Source: Candidatus Daviesbacteria bacterium RIFCSPHIGHO2_12_FULL_37_16
Lineage (GTDB): Bacteria > Patescibacteriota > Microgenomatia > Daviesbacterales > UBA10151
Direction: 5' to 3'
Length of the DNA: 52,849 nucleotides
Assembly: GCA_001776785.1 (NCBI GenBank)
Contig: MFDF01000008.1
Span: 167,097 to 219,945, forward strand
Part shown: positions 30,924 through 41,237 of the stretch, piece after piece
Layout of the letters: the number at the start of each line of letters is the position of its first letter
Position numbering within the stretch: position 1 is the first letter of the stretch
Position numbers and translations under genes: made by a program
Notes under the pieces: generated by a model
Databases searched by the model: none
The model's input: the letters and a program-made list of their open reading frames with translations, nothing else
What the model was told of the DNA's origin: nothing

Positions 30924-31289
30924 TCAGGATATGGGCTCAAAGCTTCCATCAAGATGGAGAAAATAAGTTGAAACTTCTAAATTAGGATAAAACTCATTCA
31001 CTTTTTGTTTTGCAGTTTTTAGATCCTCTGCATGTTTCTCAGGTGTGCCTTCTTCCCCATAAGCCCCACAATCCTCATGGTTTACTAAAATTACTTTTGA
31101 GATATGATGCAAATTATTAGCTATCTTAATTTGCTTTAAGATCTGCTCCAGTTCTTTAACTCCTCCGCCAAATGCCGCTCTATCAAAAGTTTTGGGTTCA
31201 AAGTTCTCAGAGATCCATTTATTTATAGCTTCCTGAAGCCTGAAGTCTATACATGTAACAATAATTGCTTCTGCCTTGTGGCTGGACAT
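30924..31289 (-). CDS. Small beta-carbonic-anhydrase-like protein
   Basis: 121 residues. The zinc-site pattern is CxDxR at C13-D15-R17 (TCIDFR) and HxxC at H71 and C74 (NHEDCGAYG), the three ligands plus the Asp-Arg dyad of beta-carbonic anhydrases. It is far shorter than typical enzymes (about 200 residues) because the N-terminal arm and C-terminal helices are missing. It ends with YFLHLDGSFEP; a similar HLDGS is found in the divergent gene at 31383. TAATAT lies seven bases before the ATG, suggesting a leaderless mRNA. Catalytic activity is plausible but not certain. Confidence 0.75.
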   Translation of the reverse strand: MSSHKAEAIIVTCIDFRLQEAINKWISENFEPKTFDRAAFGGGVKELEQILKQIKIANNLHHISKVILVNHEDCGAYGEEGTPEKHAEDLKTAKQKVNEFYPNLEVSTYFLHLDGSFEPIS

Positions 31290-31382: not shown

Positions 31383-32462
31383 ATGAAAGAATTACTAAAT
31401 CCTCAGCAATTGCTTAATGATCACTATTCAGCTGAAGCTGAGCAAAACATTGAGCGCATTCTAGAACTTAGAGCTAAGGGAGAACTTGAGGTTATTTGGA
31501 GCTGCTCAGATGCCCGGTTGATACTCCCTGATGATGTCTACCAGGTAAAAACTATATCCGGAACCGGTCCAAGAAGTCCCTGGGCAAAGCTCCTAAATTA
31601 TGACAGAACGCTAGGAGTTATAGTTATGGACCATTTTGATTGTGGCGGAATTCAGGCACGATCTCAACTTCCTGAAAAAATTGCAGATGAAGATACAGCT
31701 TTAGGGTTTGTCAGAGACCATGTTTGGGCAAATGATCCTATAATTCAGTCAATCTTAACTGGTTCCTGGACCGCATCCCGCACTAAAAGGACAGTTGTAT
31801 CTGTCGTTCAAAACCATCTGGATGGTTCAGTTTATCCTCAAGGGGTATTTAATAACGGAAGTCAAACAGAACATAAAACTATCCCAACATATAAGCTGAT
31901 GCCTGAAGAGTATCTGCCGGAAGGGTTATATGGAGACGAAATCCCCCAGCTCGATGAATCATTCATTCCTTCCTCAGCCGCACACATATTAAATAAAATT
32001 GCCAAAAAAGTAGAATTCATTAGAACTAAATATCCTGAAGTTATGGATTTACAGCCAGTTCAGGATCCCGAAGTCATTGCAATAACTACAAACTTAAAAC
32101 CCCTTTCAGCCAGATTCCCCAAACATTTTAGTAAACCAAACACAGTGTTTCAGGTGAGTTTAGCAAGACAATCATTTGATAATGAAGGAGAACTAAGTAC
32201 AGATGACGTAAGAGAGGCATTTAGACAGATACATTACCCTATTTCCTATAGTTTAGAACATAGCAGTCTAGCAGAAGAAGCACCTTTTAAAAGTACCAGA
32301 GTGCTATATATTGAAACAGGCGATATGAAGGTCTCGTTAGGGCTTGCTAAACAAGCACAAAGAAGATTGTGGGTGCAAGAATGGCTTGAGTTACCTGATA
32401 GAACAATCATTGCAGCTGAAGCAATCAAGGGGAAAATTCGGGAAATCGAGCAGGTTGTATAA
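31383..32462 (+). CDS. Large beta-carbonic-anhydrase-like protein
   Basis: 359 residues. The N-terminal ~150 residues carry C41-x-D43-x-R45 (CSDAR) and H84-x2-C87 (DHFDCGG), the full beta-class zinc signature. NHLDGSVYPQG parallels the HLDGS of the small homologue at 30924. The C-terminal ~190 residues are a separate soluble part that I do not recognise. It is divergent from the small homologue and is preceded by an attenuator-like hairpin. It may hydrate CO2 or use another substrate, as some carbonic-anhydrase-like families do. Confidence 0.7.
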   Translation: MKELLNPQQLLNDHYSAEAEQNIERILELRAKGELEVIWSCSDARLILPDDVYQVKTISGTGPRSPWAKLLNYDRTLGVIVMDHFDCGGIQARSQLPEKIADEDTALGFVRDHVWANDPIIQSILTGSWTASRTKRTVVSVVQNHLDGSVYPQGVFNNGSQTEHKTIPTYKLMPEEYLPEGLYGDEIPQLDESFIPSSAAHILNKIAKKVEFIRTKYPEVMDLQPVQDPEVIAITTNLKPLSARFPKHFSKPNTVFQVSLARQSFDNEGELSTDDVREAFRQIHYPISYSLEHSSLAEEAPFKSTRVLYIETGDMKVSLGLAKQAQRRLWVQEWLELPDRTIIAAEAIKGKIREIEQVV

Positions 32463-32494: not shown

Positions 32495-32905
32495 ATGTCC
32501 CAGCTTAATTTAAAAATAGTCACTCCTGATAGTGAGATCTTTAATGAAACAGTTGACGCTGTTAACGCCTTTACTGAACAGGGAGAGATAGGGATACTCC
32601 CAAACCACATTAATTTAATGACCAAACTTACTCCTGGTGAATTAAAAATAAAAAAAGGCAATAAATTAACCTATATGGCAACAGGTGATGGTTTTTTGCA
32701 AGTCTCAGATAACACAGTCACAATCATGACTGATATGGCTGTAGATGAAGACTTAATTAATGAAAAGGCAGTTGAGGAAGCTAAAAAAAGGGCGCAGCAG
32801 GCTTTAGAACAAAAGCTCTCTGATGAAGAATATGCGCAAACTCTATCTGTCTTAGAAAAATCCCTGGCCCAGTTAAAAGTTAAAAGAAGACATAGGGTTA
32901 GGTAA
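32495..32905 (+). CDS. atpC: ATP synthase F1 subunit epsilon
   Basis: 136 residues: N-terminal beta-sandwich (LNLKIVTPDSEIFNETVDAVNA, EIGILPNHINLMTKL) and the C-terminal helical hairpin with AKKRAQQALEQKLSDEEYAQ. It is the inhibitory and coupling subunit of F1. It is separated from atpD by 3.5 kb, has its own promoter and likely a leaderless mRNA. The next gene begins directly after its stop with no gap, so it forms an operon with the Cys/His-module protein. Confidence 0.93.
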   Translation: MSQLNLKIVTPDSEIFNETVDAVNAFTEQGEIGILPNHINLMTKLTPGELKIKKGNKLTYMATGDGFLQVSDNTVTIMTDMAVDEDLINEKAVEEAKKRAQQALEQKLSDEEYAQTLSVLEKSLAQLKVKRRHRVR

Positions 32906-34129
32906 ATGAATTTTAAAAAGTTTTTAAAAAAGATAAAAAAGGCATATCTTAATGATAAGAAATTTTTGGTGGGATTGTTAATCGTAGCAGTAGTAGTTTT
33001 TTTCCTGCAGGAATACAGATATCAAAACAATGGCTCTCTTTTTAGACTCAGTACTCAAAAAGATATATCCCAAGAAGATGTAAAAAAACCCCAGGAATCG
33101 CAGGATGATAATCCTGAGTTAAAAGAAATACTGGAAAGTCCCATCCAGGATGTAAGGCTAAAAGCTGCCAGAAGGCTAGTTGAACGCGTTGATGTTGACA
33201 AGGCTTTGGAAATCCTGGAAAAATCAACCCTTCCGCACACAGGTGAAGGACATCTAGTTGTCCACCAGATTGGTTTCTATGCCTACCAAAAATATGGTGT
33301 AGATTCCATACTAAAATGCAGGGACTATTTCCTCTATGCCTGCTACCATGGTGCAATTATTGAGGCTGCCTCAGACCAGGGGTTTGATGCAATTGCTAAG
33401 ATGACAGACAAGTGTAAAGATTCCCCTACCAGGCATTTCCAATGTGTCCATGCAGCAGGCCATTCTATTTTGGCAATCTGGAATTACGACCTTCCTGAAG
33501 CCTTAAAAACTTGTGATGAGATTTATGAGAGTGACAACAAATTTCCAGAGGCCCTAAGCTCTTGTCACAACGGGGCTTTCATGGAAAACCTGTTTGGCGT
33601 GCACGATTTTGATACCGGCAAACAGCCCAAGAGGGACTGGTTATCTGATGACCCTTATTTTCCATGTAATGCATTCGGGCAAAAATATCAAAAAGGCTGC
33701 TGGTTAAATCAGGCTGCCAGAATTTATCAGATGCAAAATGGCGACCTTGTTAAAACAACTGAGCTTTGTAACCAGGCAGGAGATAATGAGTATGTTGCAT
33801 GGTGTATGGATAATGTAGCAAGGCAGATCCACCCACTTACAAATGGCGACCCTTCAAAAACCTTCTCACTTTGCCAGCAGGTAGGCCCAAACTGGTATAA
33901 CAACTGTGTTTTAATTAATGCAGGTTCTTTCTATTCGGTTGGAGGAAAGGCTCAGGCCGTATATATCTGCCAAAATATACCACCACAAATTAAAAATGAG
34001 TGCTACACTAGGATTATCGGCCAAATTTTATCCGACCCTATTGATAAAAAAGAAAAAAATTCTTTATGCCAAACCATTGAAACACCTTTTAAAAATCAAT
34101 GCCTGTCAGCTCTTTCCTCAGTAAATTAG
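32906..34129 (+). CDS. Membrane-anchored Cys/His-module protein (paralog A)
   Basis: 407 residues. A basic start and one transmembrane helix (FLVGLLIVAVVVFFLQ, about 20-37) put the rest outside the cytoplasm. After an acidic linker comes the module shared with the genes at 37223 and 38404: HLVVH, CRDYFLYACYHGA, CVHAAGHS, CHNGAFMEN, then FPCN, GCWLNQ and four more paired-cysteine helices (ELCNQAGDNEYVAWCMDN-like). Cysteines recur in helical hairpins about 10-14 residues apart, like disulfide-stapled TPR/Sel1-type repeats. The conserved His and Glu suggest metal binding. Translationally joined to atpC. No family name known to me. Confidence 0.75.
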   Translation: MNFKKFLKKIKKAYLNDKKFLVGLLIVAVVVFFLQEYRYQNNGSLFRLSTQKDISQEDVKKPQESQDDNPELKEILESPIQDVRLKAARRLVERVDVDKALEILEKSTLPHTGEGHLVVHQIGFYAYQKYGVDSILKCRDYFLYACYHGAIIEAASDQGFDAIAKMTDKCKDSPTRHFQCVHAAGHSILAIWNYDLPEALKTCDEIYESDNKFPEALSSCHNGAFMENLFGVHDFDTGKQPKRDWLSDDPYFPCNAFGQKYQKGCWLNQAARIYQMQNGDLVKTTELCNQAGDNEYVAWCMDNVARQIHPLTNGDPSKTFSLCQQVGPNWYNNCVLINAGSFYSVGGKAQAVYICQNIPPQIKNECYTRIIGQILSDPIDKKEKNSLCQTIETPFKNQCLSALSSVN

Positions 34130-34145
34130 CCCTAAATTTCCCCTA

Positions 34146-34176
34146 TTGACTTACAATTAAAAGCTGTGCGCATAAT
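34146..34176 (+). promoter_or_regulatory. Promoter for the surface protein operon
   Basis: TTGACT (34146-34151) and CATAAT (34171-34176) with a 19-bp spacer, 17 bp before the GTG of the 82-aa gene. Confidence 0.5.
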
Positions 34177-34193
34177 AGGTAGAAGATCATAGA

Positions 34194-34442
34194 GTGGTTA
34201 ATCAAAAAGGAATAATTCATCTAGCGCTACCACTTATTATTTTACTGCTCATGGCGGGGGCAGTACTTTTTGTCCTCATAAATTTAGGTATAATTAAGAA
34301 TCCTTTCAACAACCTCTCCTTTTTCAACCAGCAGGTCCCTAAAATATCTACCAAAACTGAGTACAAAAACCCTTTTAAGAAGGAAACTCAATATGTAAAC
34401 CCTTTTGATACATATAAAAATCCTTTTGTAGTGAGCAAATAA
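34194..34442 (+). CDS. Small membrane protein with NPF repeats
   Basis: 82 residues from GTG 34194. KGIIHLALPLIILLLMAGAVLFVLINLG is a membrane helix with a pilin-like KG start but no Glu at position 5. The outside part repeats NPF four times (IKNPF, YKNPF, VNPF, YKNPF), spaced by 12-35 residues. It ends three bases before the 926-residue surface protein and shares its promoter, so the two probably work together. It may be an anchor or assembly factor. Not recognised. Confidence 0.65.
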   Translation: MVNQKGIIHLALPLIILLLMAGAVLFVLINLGIIKNPFNNLSFFNQQVPKISTKTEYKNPFKKETQYVNPFDTYKNPFVVSK

Positions 34443-34445
34443 GAA

Positions 34446-37226
34446 ATGAATAAATTAATCACTATAATGCGAAGCAATACAGGAAGCGTAGCGACTATAA
34501 ACTTAACAAAATTCATCTTCCAAATTTTTTCTGTAGCTCTTATCTTGCTTTTTTCTGCAACCTCAGTCTTCTCCCAAGCAGCTTCCCCTGCACCATCAGG
34601 ATCTCCTGCTCAAGATCCAAACCAATCCACTGAAATAAATTTAACATACCCTGTTGATGACCTAGGGGGGTGTAATAATTTGGAAGAATGTACAGACTAT
34701 TGTGAAGACCCTGTAAATTATAATTCCTGCTCAAATTTTGCCAAGAAAAACGGCTTCTACAGAGATGATATAACAGCTTATGCTTCTGATGAAGATTGGG
34801 AGGGTACCCAAAATGAGCTTGGCTGTAATTCAAAAGATTCCTGTTCTGATTTTTGCTCCAAGTCTGAAAACTATGATGCTTGCGAATCCTATGCAAAAAG
34901 GCATGAAATCCCAGGAGGTTATATACAGCAGCCAGATAAACCTGAGTATTTAGAAGTCGCCAAAAATGTTCTGGGCTGTGACAGTACAGATTCTTGTGCC
35001 AATGCCTGTGATGACCCTGCAAACGCAGACAAATGTACAGATTTTGCCAATCAGGTAGGGCTTTTAGGAGGGACTACAACAGAAGGTCCAGGAGGCTGCC
35101 AGACACCAGGGACTTGCGGGGCATATTGTGCAGACCCCAACAACTATATCCAGTGCTCAAATTTTGTGCCTGAAGGAACAACCTTCAGTGGTCCAGGAGG
35201 GTGTGATAGCCAGGAATCATGTAGAAGTTATTGTGAACAAAACCCAGATAGCTGCAGAAGTTATTCTCCTGGTTCAAATGGTGCTTATACCCCAATTGCT
35301 TGCCCTCAGGGAGAGTATCATGGGCCAGGCGGTGCATGTACATCAGTTGGAAATACCCAGACAGCTGTCAGCTGCATAGGTGCAGATAAGTATTGGGATG
35401 GTACTGCCTGCCATGATCAGCCTCCAGTTGGCATCTCAACTGAAATACCAAGCTCCTTTTTCGAACCCAGGTCTGATATGGGAAACTGTCAAACCCCTGG
35501 TGAATGTTATGATTACTGTAAGGAAAATCCAAATGCGCAGTCTTGTCAGGGGTTTGACCCTCAGTATCCCAGGCCAGAAGTTGGTGATGGATACACACCT
35601 TATCTTTACTACACACCAGGATCAGAGGTAGAACATGAACCTGTTGAGGACATGGGAGGCTGTACCTCACCTGCCGACTGTTATGACTACTGTACAGAAA
35701 ATCCCGGAGAATGTGAAGGCTTTAATGAAAATGCTCCCAGGCCGCCTGAAGTCTACATACCTGGAACTTACTATACTCCTCCTGCAGATGAAGTATATGT
35801 AACACCTCCAATCACAAACTTCTACACAACCCCAATGTATTACACACCTCCAGAGGGTTCTACTTACACAACCCCCCAGTACTACACACCAGGAACCTAT
35901 TCAACCCCAACCTATTACACTCCCCCTGAAGGATCTAATTACACTACTCCAAACTACTACACACCATGGAGTGATTACCCCACCCCAACAGGACAATATC
36001 CCACCCCAACTTATTCAACACCAACCTATTACACTCCTCCAGGCGGTTCAAATTACACAACTCCTTATTACTACACACCCCCATCCTACACAACACCATA
36101 CTACTACACCCCATCAGACAGAAATTACACTACCCCTACTTACTCAACACCCCCTACATACACAACCCCCCAGTACTACACACCATGGACTGGTGGTGGC
36201 TACACTACCCCTGTCTACTACACTCCACCTACATACACAACCCCTACTTACTACACTCCTCCTGATGGTTCAAATTACACAACACCAAATTACTACACAC
36301 CTCCTCCTCCTTACACAACACCAAGATATTACACGCCTGGAACTTACCCAACCCCCCCTCAGTATTCAACCCCTCCAGCATATACTTCACCATCTTATGG
36401 TTACCCAACCCCTGGCGGAGCTTATACAAGCCCCACTTATAACACACCTGCAAACTATTCAACGCCTACCTATTACACACCTCCTCCTTATTCTACCCCC
36501 TATTACTACACTCCATATACAACTCCTAACTACTATACTCCTGGTGATCCCAACTACTCTACTCCAAGCTACTATACCCCATATACAACTCCTAACTATT
36601 CAACACCTACTTACTATTCACCAGCTTATTACTCTCCTGGCGGAACATACACCTCACCTTACTATACTCCTGGCAGCGGGTATACCTCCCCATCTATAGA
36701 TTACTCAACGCCTGGAACTTACTACAGTCCATATAATTCACCAAATTATTATTACCCAACTCCATCAACATCTACCTATTACTCACCATCAGATTCCAAT
36801 TATTCAACTCCCAGCAACACTTACTATGTTAGCCCAAGTTACTCATACCCAACTCCTGGAGGAAGTGATCAAAGCCCTGTTTATGGCTATCCCACTCCAG
36901 GATCAGGATATACTTATCCAACACCCAATACCTACTACTATCCTACACCTACAGGTAGTTACGCTTCTCCAGGTGACTACCCTTACCCTACACCAAGTTA
37001 TCCAACTCCCTCAGAAAGTTATGGAACCCCACCATATGGTACCCCTAGCTATGACACACCACCATATGGCACCCCTAGCTATGACACACCTTCATATGGT
37101 ACCCCATCCTATGGCACCCCTAGCTATGACACACCTTCATATGGTACCCCAAGCTCAGGAGGAACACTGGGTGTATCTACCTCAAAGGGTATCATCCAGC
37201 AGATCTGGGATTTCTTAACCAACTAA
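34446..37226 (+). CDS. Large secreted Cys-repeat and Tyr/Thr/Pro-rich surface protein
   Basis: 926 residues. A signal peptide (hydrophobic core FIFQIFSVALILLFSATS, likely cleavage near SVFSQA) leads to a Cys-rich region, about residues 72-430. It has seven repeats of C-x5-C-x3-C-x6-8-C (for example GGCNNLEECTDYCEDP). Residues ~436-905 are a low-complexity stalk of YYTPP, YTTP and YGTPSYDTP units. The C-terminus (GGTLGVSTSKGIIQQIWDFL) has no LPxTG or membrane segment. The stalk resembles extensin-like or wall-spanning rods and may be glycosylated or Tyr-crosslinked; this is inference. The upstream 82-aa gene is in the same operon. Confidence 0.8.
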   Translation: MNKLITIMRSNTGSVATINLTKFIFQIFSVALILLFSATSVFSQAASPAPSGSPAQDPNQSTEINLTYPVDDLGGCNNLEECTDYCEDPVNYNSCSNFAKKNGFYRDDITAYASDEDWEGTQNELGCNSKDSCSDFCSKSENYDACESYAKRHEIPGGYIQQPDKPEYLEVAKNVLGCDSTDSCANACDDPANADKCTDFANQVGLLGGTTTEGPGGCQTPGTCGAYCADPNNYIQCSNFVPEGTTFSGPGGCDSQESCRSYCEQNPDSCRSYSPGSNGAYTPIACPQGEYHGPGGACTSVGNTQTAVSCIGADKYWDGTACHDQPPVGISTEIPSSFFEPRSDMGNCQTPGECYDYCKENPNAQSCQGFDPQYPRPEVGDGYTPYLYYTPGSEVEHEPVEDMGGCTSPADCYDYCTENPGECEGFNENAPRPPEVYIPGTYYTPPADEVYVTPPITNFYTTPMYYTPPEGSTYTTPQYYTPGTYSTPTYYTPPEGSNYTTPNYYTPWSDYPTPTGQYPTPTYSTPTYYTPPGGSNYTTPYYYTPPSYTTPYYYTPSDRNYTTPTYSTPPTYTTPQYYTPWTGGGYTTPVYYTPPTYTTPTYYTPPDGSNYTTPNYYTPPPPYTTPRYYTPGTYPTPPQYSTPPAYTSPSYGYPTPGGAYTSPTYNTPANYSTPTYYTPPPYSTPYYYTPYTTPNYYTPGDPNYSTPSYYTPYTTPNYSTPTYYSPAYYSPGGTYTSPYYTPGSGYTSPSIDYSTPGTYYSPYNSPNYYYPTPSTSTYYSPSDSNYSTPSNTYYVSPSYSYPTPGGSDQSPVYGYPTPGSGYTYPTPNTYYYPTPTGSYASPGDYPYPTPSYPTPSESYGTPPYGTPSYDTPPYGTPSYDTPSYGTPSYGTPSYDTPSYGTPSSGGTLGVSTSKGIIQQIWDFLTN
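35770..37155 (+). repeat. Coding tandem repeats of the TTACACACCxxC / TATGGTACCCC type
   Basis: About 1.4 kb of imperfect 9-18-bp units encoding YYTP, YTTP and, at the end (37020-37150), 12-bp TATGGCACCCCT units encoding YGTPSYDTP. The period matches codon triplets. Repeat number is likely to vary among strains, and assembly across it should be viewed with care. Confidence 0.85.
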
Positions 37227-38344
37227 GGAACAAGGCAGCTATTTTTAATCTCAGTTATAGGAATTTTATTGCACATACTATTTTTTTCCTGGGAATTTTT
37301 AGAATACCCTCTAATTGGACCAATCAGTGCAGAATAACAGCTGGATTGCTTCTCAGGTTTTGCTCCCTCACAGATTTTAAATGGCAGCTCCCTCCCACCA
37401 ACTGAAAATTCTGCATTTGCAACAGATATTAAACAGGGGTCAAACCAATCATCAGGCATTAAGTTGCACATCCTTATAACTTCAGGAACACTTCCTTTAG
37501 CAGATGGGTGAATTTGCCTGGCTATAGCATCAAAGCAGGTTGTTTTAAACTCAGTATTTGCAAGCTTGCTGCACTGCTCTGCCACTTTTTGAAAATCACC
37601 TTTATAAAGCTGGAACATCCAGGAAGGCTGGTTAGACCAGCATGCCCTGATATACTTCTGTTCAATTTTAGGGCTATTGCATGGGTAAACTGGGTCGTCA
37701 GTTTTTACCCACCTAAAAGGTGAGGGTTGCCCATCATCATGGACAGCCCAGATATTTTCCATAAACACACCGTCATAACAGTTAAAAGTTGGAAAGTCAG
37801 AAACTTTAGCGGAGATCTCATCACACTTTTCTAAAGCTTTAGTCAAGTACTGATATCCCTCATTTGCCAAAAACCCATGTCCGATAGCATGTGAGCATTG
37901 GGCTGTTACTCCATACCCTCCTTTTTTACAGGAATCCATAACTTTCTCTAAATTAGCAATTCCCCCATCTGCCACAGCTCTTATCACAAACCCATGGTAG
38001 CAGGAAGATAAAAAGTAATCTTTACAATAAACTAACCCCTCAGTTTTATATTTATCATATAACCAGTCTCCAACTGTGTGGTTTAAAAGATGAGTCTGTC
38101 CGTCAAAAGGCAGTCCTGATTTTAGTAGCAAATCTTGAGCCTGTTCTGGTCCAATTCTATCAATAAGTTTTCTATAAAGCTCAACCTGGGCATCTAAATT
38201 AGGGGTATTCTTAATTTTTTCTATTTCCTCTGCTTTAGTTTCAGTTACAATGGGAGAGCTTTGCTTAATGGATATCTGGTCTTTGAAAATATAAACTACT
38301 AAACCAAAAATTATTATGAGTAGAAAGAAAACAATTCCCTTCAT
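37223..38344 (-). CDS. Membrane-anchored Cys/His-module protein (paralog B)
   Basis: 373 residues. One N-terminal transmembrane helix (IVFFLLIIIFGLVVYIF), a linker, then the same module order as at 32906: HLLNH, CKDYFLSSCYHGF, CSHAIGHG, CYDGVFMEN, YPCN, ACWSNQPS, followed by paired-Cys hairpins and RQIHPSAKGS. Similarity to paralog A runs through the whole extracellular part, so they arose by duplication. It is convergent with the 926-aa gene (4-bp overlap) and divergent from the cupredoxin-fused paralog C. Confidence 0.75.
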   Translation of the reverse strand: MKGIVFFLLIIIFGLVVYIFKDQISIKQSSPIVTETKAEEIEKIKNTPNLDAQVELYRKLIDRIGPEQAQDLLLKSGLPFDGQTHLLNHTVGDWLYDKYKTEGLVYCKDYFLSSCYHGFVIRAVADGGIANLEKVMDSCKKGGYGVTAQCSHAIGHGFLANEGYQYLTKALEKCDEISAKVSDFPTFNCYDGVFMENIWAVHDDGQPSPFRWVKTDDPVYPCNSPKIEQKYIRACWSNQPSWMFQLYKGDFQKVAEQCSKLANTEFKTTCFDAIARQIHPSAKGSVPEVIRMCNLMPDDWFDPCLISVANAEFSVGGRELPFKICEGAKPEKQSSCYSALIGPIRGYSKNSQEKNSMCNKIPITEIKNSCLVP

Positions 38345-38387
38345 CTGATTTAAGGATATAATGGAATAGAAGGGTAAAGCAATCCTG

Positions 38388-38393
38388 TATAAT
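38388..38393 (+). promoter_or_regulatory. -10 element of the cupredoxin-fusion gene
   Basis: TATAAT ten bases before the ATG at 38404. No Shine-Dalgarno sequence is present. Confidence 0.5.
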
Positions 38394-38403
38394 AGGCTAG
38401 CTA

Positions 38404-40899
38404 ATGATCCAATTTAAGTTTTCCAAAATTTTTGTTTTTGCTTTAGTAATAATTTGGCTTTTTAACCCCTCAACTTCATTAGCTCACTCACAAATCCAAA
38501 TTATTCAGATGACACAAAATGGATTTGAGCCAGACATAGTCACAATTGATACAAACTCCTCAGTCATCTTTGTAAATAAAGATAAAAATCCCAGGTGGCC
38601 GGCATCAAACCTCCACCCAACACATGGGATTTACCCTGAATTTGACCCTAAACAGCAAATTGAACCAGGTAAAGATTGGACATTTAAACCCCAAAAATCA
38701 GGCACTTTCAAATTCCACGATCACCTCTTCCCTCATTTTAGAGGGACTCTAATTGTAGAGGAAGAACCTGGATCTAAACTGGCTGATAATGAAACTTCCT
38801 ACCCTGCTTTGAACTTAATAGATAAGCTCAAGAACACTTTTTCAAATCTCCTAAAAAATTTAAACCAATTTTTTAATTCAAAAAAGTTTAAAAATGTAGA
38901 ATTAATGGATTTAAACAAGGTATCCTCTGCTCAGCAGTTTAAAGCTTTGGAAGATTATGCAAAAGAAGCTGGGGCCCAAAAAGCCTGGGAAGCAATCCAA
39001 AATAGTTTTAAAGGTCAAGCGGGCTCATCTGGCAACATCCATGACCTTGCACACCTGTCTGGAAGCCTGCTTTATGAAGAAAAAGGTTTTGAAGGCCTGG
39101 CAGTTTGCAGTACTGATTTTGCATTCGGCTGCTACCATGGTTTTTTAGACAAGGCATTTTCTAAAAACCTTGACAATCTTCAGGATGCCCAGGGTGCCTG
39201 CATGAAATTAGGAGAAGGGTTAAATGGGCCAGCTGCAAGCTGTATCCATGGGATTGGCCACGGCATAGCAAGTTTTTACTCAACAAATGATCTGAAATCA
39301 TCCCTTTCAGAGTGCAGGAAGCTGACTTTAGGTAGTGAATATTGCTTTGATGGTGTTTTTATGGAGTTTGTAAGAAATGCTCCTGAAAGCTTTTTTAAAA
39401 AAGATGAACCGCTCTACCCCTGCGATGAACTTGAGAAAAATTATGGACCTGCCTACTCCTTTTCCTGCGGTAGGAATCAACCCTCACTTATGATGGGCAG
39501 GTTTAAAATGGGTTTTGATGAGGTAGTATCCGTTTGCCTTAATGCAGTTTCAAAAAATTTTAAGCAGGCATGCTTTGACTCTCTTGGGTTTTCCCTTGCA
39601 TCAACTCAAGATGAAGCTCAGATTATTCAGGGATGCCAAAGAATTGGAGCAGCTGAGTTTATGTCAAGATGCGCAAAAGCTGCTGCAGGAGAGCTTATTT
39701 TTCAGGAAGTCCCCGGGTGGGAAGGAAAATCAGAAGCTGTTTGTATGGCTTTTCCCAAGGGGCAAGCTGAATGCAAATCCCATCTTGACAGGTTAATTAA
39801 GGAATATGGAAGGGTAAAAAAGCTGACATTCAATTCATTTAAGCCTGGAGAAGATCCTGGAAGTTACTTAAGGCATGAAATAAAAAAATGCTATGAGACT
39901 GGAGGGAGGGATGGCTGCTATAAAGAAGCAGCCAAATTTTTTTACAATCAGTTAGGATTTTCCCAAACTCTTGGGCTACTCAAAGCCAATGAAGGTTTTC
40001 CTGAAGTCTATGCCCGCTGCCATGAAGTAACCCACTACCTGTCGCGTTTCGAGTATGAAAAACAAAAAAATGTTGCCAAAGTGTATGCCCAATGTGACTC
40101 CACCTGCCATGGAGGCTGCTACCATGGCACCATGGAAGCATACTTAAATGAGCAGGTTAATAATCAAGTTAATATAGCTTCCCATTTTCCCAAAATTTGT
40201 GGTCAGATTAAAGATTATGAAAAACCGCTTGAATTTAATGAGTGTCTTCATGGTATTGGCCACGCTGCCATGTTTGTTACAGACATGGAACTTAAGGACT
40301 CCTTAAAGCTTTGCGACAGCTTAATTAAAATAGATCACCAAGAAAGGTGCTATTCGGGTGTATTTATGGAAAATTCCTCATCCTCTACTTCAAATGATCA
40401 TAAAAGCAAATACTTAAAATCAGATGATCCATTCTACCCTTGTAACTCACTGGAAGAAAAACACCAGGCACTTTGCTGGCAATACCAAAGTTCTTATTTT
40501 GCACTTATCTTAAACCAGGACTTTAAAAAAGTTGCAGATTTGTGCCTGCAAATCCCTCAAGCCTTCCATGACAAATGCTTTAAAACAATAGGCACAAATC
40601 AGGTTGGCTTAACATCCTCGTTTCAGGTAATGAAAGATAATTGCGGCAAAATGCCCTCAGCTCACTTCAAAAATGTTTGTATCTCTGGGGTAATCTCCTC
40701 TTTTGCGTATAGGTTTGTAGATGATTTAGAGAGGATGCTTGAGTTTTGTTCACTGGTTGATGCAGAAAATAAAGAGAGTTGTTACAAACAGATTGGAACA
40801 TCTGTTATGGACTGGAACAGTGACAAAAATATTGCCAAAAAACACTGCAGCGAAATCCCTGACAATCAAGCGTCTTCCTGGTGTCTTAGTGTTATATAA
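38404..40899 (+). CDS. Secreted cupredoxin-Cys/His double-module protein (paralog C)
   Basis: 831 residues. Signal peptide (FVFALVIIWLFNPSTSLAHS), then a cupredoxin-like domain (residues ~28-118) with NLHPTHGIYPEF and FKFHDHLFPHFRGTL. The usual copper Cys-x-x-His-x-x-Met loop is His-rich instead. Two Cys/His modules follow. Module 1 (~190-345) has HDLAH, GCYHGF, CIHGIGHG and CFDGVFMEF. Module 2 (~510-690) has HEVTH, GCYHGT, CLHGIGHA and CYSGVFMEN. Each ends in paired-Cys helices. The protein has no membrane anchor except a possibly uncleaved signal. It is the largest member of the family and the best hint that the modules handle a metal. Confidence 0.75.
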   Translation: MIQFKFSKIFVFALVIIWLFNPSTSLAHSQIQIIQMTQNGFEPDIVTIDTNSSVIFVNKDKNPRWPASNLHPTHGIYPEFDPKQQIEPGKDWTFKPQKSGTFKFHDHLFPHFRGTLIVEEEPGSKLADNETSYPALNLIDKLKNTFSNLLKNLNQFFNSKKFKNVELMDLNKVSSAQQFKALEDYAKEAGAQKAWEAIQNSFKGQAGSSGNIHDLAHLSGSLLYEEKGFEGLAVCSTDFAFGCYHGFLDKAFSKNLDNLQDAQGACMKLGEGLNGPAASCIHGIGHGIASFYSTNDLKSSLSECRKLTLGSEYCFDGVFMEFVRNAPESFFKKDEPLYPCDELEKNYGPAYSFSCGRNQPSLMMGRFKMGFDEVVSVCLNAVSKNFKQACFDSLGFSLASTQDEAQIIQGCQRIGAAEFMSRCAKAAAGELIFQEVPGWEGKSEAVCMAFPKGQAECKSHLDRLIKEYGRVKKLTFNSFKPGEDPGSYLRHEIKKCYETGGRDGCYKEAAKFFYNQLGFSQTLGLLKANEGFPEVYARCHEVTHYLSRFEYEKQKNVAKVYAQCDSTCHGGCYHGTMEAYLNEQVNNQVNIASHFPKICGQIKDYEKPLEFNECLHGIGHAAMFVTDMELKDSLKLCDSLIKIDHQERCYSGVFMENSSSSTSNDHKSKYLKSDDPFYPCNSLEEKHQALCWQYQSSYFALILNQDFKKVADLCLQIPQAFHDKCFKTIGTNQVGLTSSFQVMKDNCGKMPSAHFKNVCISGVISSFAYRFVDDLERMLEFCSLVDAENKESCYKQIGTSVMDWNSDKNIAKKHCSEIPDNQASSWCLSVI

Positions 40900-41102: not shown

Positions 41103-41185
41103 CCGGAGATGGCAGAGTGGCCAATTGCACCAGACTGTAAATCTGGCGGGTTTTCCCTTCGGAGGTTCAAATCCTCCTCTCCGGA
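41103..41185 (+). tRNA. tRNA-Tyr (GUA), class II, with C1:G72
   Basis: Cloverleaf read by eye: acceptor CCGGAGA / TCTCCGG with discriminator A73, U8, D-arm GCAG / TTGC with A14 and G18G19, anticodon stem CCAGA / TCTGG with loop CTGTAAA (anticodon GTA), long variable arm with GGG-TTTT-CCC, T-arm GGAGG / CCTCC with loop TTCAAAT. CCA is not encoded. The first pair is C1:G72, the archaeal/eukaryotic tyrosine identity pair; bacterial tRNA-Tyr normally has G1:C72. The long variable arm is bacterial. Confidence 0.95.
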
Positions 41186-41237
41186 CTTTACAGATCTGTT
41201 AGATGGAAGTCCAAAATTTTAATTATTCTTGAGCTAT

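Follow-up and report, generated by a model that had tools for sequence, protein, structure and literature searches.

What is done by a histidine- and cysteine-rich module that recurs in three neighboring genes is the question raised by a 52,849-nucleotide stretch (hereafter the window) of contig MFDF01000008.1 from Candidatus Daviesbacteria bacterium RIFCSPHIGHO2_12_FULL_37_16. An earlier note on this DNA had described the module as an undescribed exoprotein signature of constant order and spacing, present in four copies, and had proposed that five His and one Glu form a buried metal site. The open reading frames (ORFs) and their translations agree with the pattern matches on the places of the four diverged modules, which are spread over three exported proteins, P0001, P0002 and P0003. 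We conclude from sequence comparison that the module defines a family that is unnamed and undescribed, and that five conserved His probably form the basis of a metal site in it.

P0001 (32906..34129, + strand; 407 amino acids (aa)) is membrane-anchored and has a single module, which scores E=5e-88 with the module hidden Markov model (HMM); its five-His core lies at 33251..33586 (+) and comprises H116, H120, CYHG (H148), CVHAAGH (H182, H186) and CHNGAFME (pattern match 33443-33585). P0002 (37223..38344, - strand; 373 aa), the protein chosen for modeling, is likewise membrane-anchored with one module, and its core at 37757..38092 (-) comprises H85, H89, CYHG (H117), CSHAIGH (H152, H156) and CYDGVFME (pattern match 37758-37897). 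P0003 (38404..40899, +; 831 aa; module HMM E=4e-163) is exported and places a cupredoxin domain ahead of two modules, with a first core at 39040..39366 (+; H213, H217, CYHG, CIHGIGH, CFDGVFME; pattern match 39241-39365) and a second at 40021..40371 (+; H540, H544, CYHG, CLHGIGH, CYSGVFME; pattern match 40243-40370). In residue terms the core motifs span 116-227 of P0001, 85-196 of P0002, and 213-321 and 540-656 of P0003. A DNA pattern for CxHxxGH...CxxGxFME matched the window four times as against no match in 100 dinucleotide-preserving shuffles. The source genome (1.02 Mb, 27 contigs) holds nine modules in all, five of them outside the window: three tandem module genes on contig C5, immediately downstream of a stand-alone cupredoxin gene, and two tandem module genes on contig C4.

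In P0002 numbering, used throughout, the module reads H85xxxH89 ... C115-Y-H117-G ... C150-x-H152-xx-G155-H156 ... C189-xx-G192-x-F194-M195-E196, and Cys-paired helical hairpins come after the F194-M195-E196 stretch. Because H152, H156, the Cys and FME are built into the DNA pattern, conservation was recounted on 202 modules derived from a profile, 52 of which lack a match to the search pattern. The five His are kept almost without loss (H85 in 199, H89 in 202, H117 in 201, H152 in 202 and H156 in 201), as are G155 (202) and G192 (201), and C139, C150, C174 and C189 are each present in 202/202. Other positions vary: M195 is Met in 185/202 and Asn in 11, C115 and Y116 of CYHG change across the set, the residue four past H117 is E in 101 modules and Q in 35, adjacent His-Glu pairs are absent from the module, and its Glu positions are variable. 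In this alignment the invariant core is thus the five His, the two Gly and the four Cys, with variable E/Q/M/N residues nearby. The order of motifs claimed in the earlier note was borne out, but the spacing was not, since CYHG and CxHxxGH lie 30-43 residues apart in the window and 25-60 apart across the family, and the supposed invariance of CYHG and FME gave way as well. Similarly, the five His stood, while the Glu did not: E196 is Glu in only 167/202 modules (Gln in 16), and its replacement by Q, A, S, V or G in 35/202 led us to reject a strict role for the Glu of FME. An HExxH metallopeptidase was also rejected, for HEVTH fits one P0003 copy only and the x positions vary freely. His-rich inserts occur within the module at four loci (L050, L070, L120 and L052).

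The AlphaFold2 model of P0002 is confident and all-helical (predicted local distance difference test (pLDDT) 95.8, predicted template modeling score (pTM) 0.92), and so is a model of the core alone (pLDDT 94.8, pTM 0.90). Cys columns 84-111, 107-115, 293-304 and 325-336 are kept or lost as pairs in all 202 sequences, and the pairs 258-270 and 358-370 show one and five discordant sequences, respectively. In the P0002 model these co-lost pairs bridge neighboring helices, one disulfide to a hairpin. The exact co-loss argues that the paired Cys are disulfide partners in an oxidizing, extracytoplasmic location, and the helical hairpins are, by model and covariation, held together by disulfides. An N-terminal hydrophobic stretch was found by simple hydropathy in 115/138 family ORFs, several of the failures being truncated or mis-started, and from this and the disulfide pattern the family is predicted to be exported.

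Do the His motifs approach one another? The 84-111 pair would bring the residues just ahead of H117 close to where the H85/H89 helix starts. Mean-field coupling on variable columns (effectively 177 sequences, hence moderate power; couplings between invariant columns arise artificially from pseudocounts and were set aside) gave, after the disulfides, G92-A153 (z=6.1), A148-D191, S114-A153, S114-M195, Y116-N197, T84-G118 and D93-I121 as the top pairs, all of which adjoin His motifs and connect the four motif helices. A further coupling, V124-V135, is compatible with a hairpin that joins the second motif helix to the next helix. From the Cys co-loss and the coupled positions we infer that the helix ends carrying the His come together.

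Database searches led to no known family. Pfam gave 0 families at E<=0.01 among 131 modules, the sole NCBIfam match to these modules was spurious (E=0.006, one member), and a profile search of PDB sequences with the module returned no credible relative. The whole P0002 model found only generic helical repeats in a PDB fold search (best E 1e-3, template modeling (TM) score about 0.2), the core model alone found nothing better than E=0.3, and a viral fold search gave no match that identifies the family. A search of open-licence full-text literature with the module motif strings found no relevant paper. Sel1-like and cysteine-rich Hcp repeats resemble the module in being exported, disulfide-linked helical hairpins, but they differ in repeat length and lack a five-His core; the SLR structure 4bwr was a weak match in the P0002 fold search (E=0.015, TM 0.16), as generic helical repeats, and the Sel1 Pfam profile matched none of the 131 modules.

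The module is widespread but patchy. The DNA pattern was found in at least 112 stretches of GTDB contigs, the locus counts being lower bounds for the collections scanned, from many Patescibacteria and from Gemmatimonadota, Nitrospirota, Nitrososphaerota, Actinomycetota, Chloroflexota, Acidobacteriota, Binatia, Manganitrophaceae, DPANN archaea and Methylocystis rosea. Whole-genome profile searches recovered it in 21/380 genomes of the window's phylum, 19/61 Gemmatimonadota, 7/61 Nitrososphaeria, 5/61 Nitrospirota and 1/150 Pseudomonadota, the last being the seed genome itself. Such a distribution resembles that of an accessory trait passing between lineages. A mobile or phage trait was rejected, as viral contigs and phage records gave no module match and plasmids a single one, in Gemmatirosa. 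In a FastTree phylogeny with many weak forks the Methylocystis copy clusters with those of Patescibacteria, and the module protein of the cultured Methylocystis rosea SV97 (L052:2852-4120, -) is a candidate for horizontal transfer. Two loci from Nitrososphaeria, the class of ammonia oxidizers (L280, L281), encode proteins in which Asp-rich repeats of the calcium type precede a divergent module with MMQ in place of FME. No gene neighbor is conserved across the whole family.

The partner domains point tentatively toward metal and redox chemistry. The cupredoxin of P0003 (38434..38757, +; WPASNLHPTH ... FHDH; PF13473, E=1.8e-9, residues 11-118) lacks the Cys ligand and belongs to a type with WPASxxHPTH ... 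H[DN]H that occurs in 29/112 of the pattern loci listed (828 kb), fused to the module in 22 and encoded separately nearby in 9, as compared to 2 occurrences in 67 module-free stretches (1266 kb) of background DNA, which is patescibacterial only. The source genome also encodes it unfused (L009:6159-6572). An alignment of 20 such domains keeps the His of HPTH and H[DN]H and has no Cys at the type 1 site, and we therefore rejected a blue (type 1) identity for the fused domain; a type 2-like site or another metal may be held there instead. The same His-only cupredoxin was seen by itself (L197:10865-11425) in a genome in which no module was found (G006). In an 818-aa Acidimicrobiales protein (L101:5359-7812, -) CopC and CopD domains are fused to the module, as a partner rather than a relative, and at another locus (L059) the module is fused to a cbb3-type cytochrome c. 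Taken together, the cupredoxin, CopC-CopD, cytochrome c and the His-rich inserts would favor copper as the most likely metal, or at the least some extracytoplasmic redox metal. As for the earlier note, its cysteine pairs 10-14 residues apart proved a stronger feature than it had stated, its predictions of export, of a helical fold held by disulfides and of a family without a name are supported, and so is its use of the cupredoxin fused to one member as a metal or redox link, which recurs across the family; its interpretation as a whole is partly supported. The breadth of the family, the five module copies elsewhere in the genome and the Tyr-rich repeat partners described next had escaped it.

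A second kind of partner is found between P0001 and P0002, where P0004 (34446..37226, +; 926 aa, exported, no Pfam match) combines a Cys-rich N-terminal half with Tyr-Thr-Pro repeats. The Cys-rich part (C76-C423; 34671..35714, +) holds seven-fold repeats of the C-x5-C-x3-C-x8-C type (GGCxxxxxCxxYC...C), with homologues at L047, L087, L133 and L153, and the Tyr-rich part (YxTP, YYTP and YGTP; approximately 35733..37160, +) reaches 16 Tyr per 50 aa, YTP appearing 21 times. An ORF for an 82-aa anchored protein (34194..34442, +) lies between P0001 and this gene, and counterparts of 77 and 75 aa stand at the equivalent place in L047 and L133. The order of a P0001-like gene, a protein of about 80 aa, a P0004-like gene and one or more cupredoxin-module genes recurs in Daviesbacteria (L047/L144), Gottesmanbacteria (L087), Blackburnbacteria (L133) and the genome G178 (L153); in L144 a weak PMT_2-type mannosyltransferase match also falls within this order. 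Other loci carry repeats of the same kind but of other sequence, namely YYQG (L074, L142), YYSQ (L042, L104 and the genome G181), YYYGQA (L053), YDP (L126) and, in the second cluster of the source genome (L009), YGD. In Methylocystis the YxTP tail is the C-terminal part of the module protein itself (L052).

By one fixed criterion a Tyr-rich ORF is present in 10/112 of the listed loci (828 kb), nine of them independent, as L047 and L144 are adjoining stretches of one contig; besides these loci such ORFs occur in the window, in the second cluster of the source genome, in G178 and in G181. Background DNA yielded 1 in 1266 kb, itself located in the module-rich G181, so that Tyr-rich ORFs are about 15-fold commoner per kb at module loci. 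A YYxQ array appears in 1/380 genomes, again G181 (31 matches, others single), which is a module genome; this is weak, being one case. The same genome encodes a TPYATPY repeat protein (L190:3709-5136, -) with no module inside its 20-kb stretch. The Tyr-rich link is real, but it is limited to part of the tree and mostly to clusters of tandem copies, and P0004 is a candidate substrate or partner of the modules. Alternatively, the Tyr-rich proteins could be glycosylated stalks and the module only displayed alongside them.

We propose that the module family comprises extracytoplasmic, all-helical metalloproteins with disulfide-stapled hairpins, in which the metal site would be formed by five His, carried by the first three of the four CxH, CYHG, CxHxxGH and CxxG helices, together with variable E/Q, M/N and E/Q neighbors. 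Copper would be received from, or shared with, the fused or next-door His-only cupredoxin and would serve redox chemistry at the site instead of mere storage, as suggested by the variable Met and Glu positions and by the redox-type partner domains. In Patescibacteria the likeliest task of the tandem copies would be to oxidize, and possibly cross-link, tyrosines of Tyr-rich surface proteins, a guess from circumstantial association. To this explanation as a whole, an extracytoplasmic five-His copper redox metalloprotein family with Tyr oxidation in its patescibacterial part, we assign a probability of roughly 0.5.

Several observations weigh against it. The clustering of the His remains a prediction from Cys co-loss and coupled positions, copper binding by the cupredoxin is not obligatory because the blue-site Cys is missing, and the CopC-CopD and cytochrome c fusions are single cases each. 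Outside Patescibacteria the gene neighbors include no recurring partner, and a measured metal or activity for any relative was not found in open-licence full text. No Tyr-rich neighbor occurs in a 77-row clade containing Gemmatimonadota and Nitrospirota, and 17 further patescibacterial module regions are without a Tyr-rich ORF; the Tyr link is therefore not a function of the whole family, and Tyr modification was rejected as such on account of that clade.

Among the alternatives, a non-catalytic copper binder at the cell surface, acting in capture, buffering or handover with the cupredoxin and, once, CopC-CopD as a relay, fares best and is a tentative second choice. It would account for these associations and for the His-rich inserts, and the variable E/Q/M near the His would fit binding no less than catalysis, but five strict His, kept Gly and Tyr-rich partnerships in part of the tree exceed what a buffer needs, and no copper transporter recurs among the neighbors. 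An iron site is unlikely, whether as a di-iron centre held by helical repeats and working in the manner of deoxyhypusine hydroxylase (DOHH) or as EfeO-like iron handling. DOHH binds di-iron through four His-Glu motifs (PMC3306375), and its all-helical scaffold with ligands at equivalent positions of successive repeats recalls the repeated helical motifs, the His at i and i+4 and the nearby carboxylates of the module. EfeO joins an N-terminal Cupredoxin_1 domain to an all-helical HxxE domain (PMC9174327), much as P0003 joins a cupredoxin to helical modules. Nevertheless, DOHH is a cytoplasmic protein of HEAT repeats without disulfides in which the carboxylate is essential and the His-Glu pairs invariant, whereas in the module the carboxylates are dispensable, and the M75 domain of EfeO has HxxE and GxxE-type sites. 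The M75 model (PF09375) matches 0/131 modules, the HEAT PBS-lyase/DOHH profile and fold searches gave no match to the module, no sequence or fold match to DOHH or EfeO emerged, and no EfeU or EfeB homologue is among the neighbors listed, although no search was aimed at these two.

A metal-stabilized or purely structural surface scaffold of adhesin-like kind, its His site structural (for example, zinc), is the most improbable of these readings: the proteins are exported, disulfide-rich and repetitive, and the members from ammonia-oxidizing archaea carry calcium-type repeats ahead of the module, a surface-protein trait, but five His kept across phyla with redox-type partners are unusual for a structural site, structural zinc sites usually having three or four ligands, and the fold is already held by disulfides.

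The surroundings of the cluster offer a few further observations. The ATP synthase epsilon subunit gene (PF02823/PF00401; window 32495-32906) has its last base at 32905, directly ahead of the first base of P0001 at 32906; since the one abuts the other, P0001 may share a transcript with the F-ATPase genes. Further upstream lie a putative carbonic-anhydrase-like protein (30924-31289, -; Pro_CA_2, E=3e-18) and an adjoining longer ORF (31383-32462, +) with a weak Pro_CA match. A tRNA-Tyr gene at 41103-41186 lies directly downstream of the Tyr-rich and module cluster, possibly by coincidence.

The redox reading can be carried a step further, to a new class of secreted copper enzymes that oxidize or cross-link Tyr, acting on dedicated Tyr-rich repeat proteins at the patescibacterial cell surface and, in one methanotroph, on the enzyme's own tail, a doubtful step at present. 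By analogy, and just as doubtfully, such an enzyme might be to bacteria what the BURP cyclases are to plants, with a helical site of five His unrelated to theirs. BURP-domain cyclases use four conserved His and two type 2 copper ions on a repeat-bearing aromatic substrate that is fused or split (PMC12186524). The module shares with them an extracytoplasmic setting, CH-type motifs and a Tyr-rich partner that is either fused (L052) or separate, but it has five His, is predicted to be all-helical and shows no sequence relation to them, the BURP profile in Pfam matching none of the 131 modules; the resemblance is one of logic and not of membership. The family reaches across bacteria and archaea, from ammonia oxidizers, nitrite oxidizers and a methanotroph to Gemmatimonadota and the ultra-small Patescibacteria. 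If the module binds copper, it would add a new type of copper site to organisms that play a central part in the nitrogen and methane cycles, and if it acts on its Tyr-rich neighbors, it would explain how a poorly understood surface is built or hardened in some Patescibacteria and would make copper-driven cross-linking of peptides a problem solved twice, by unrelated means.

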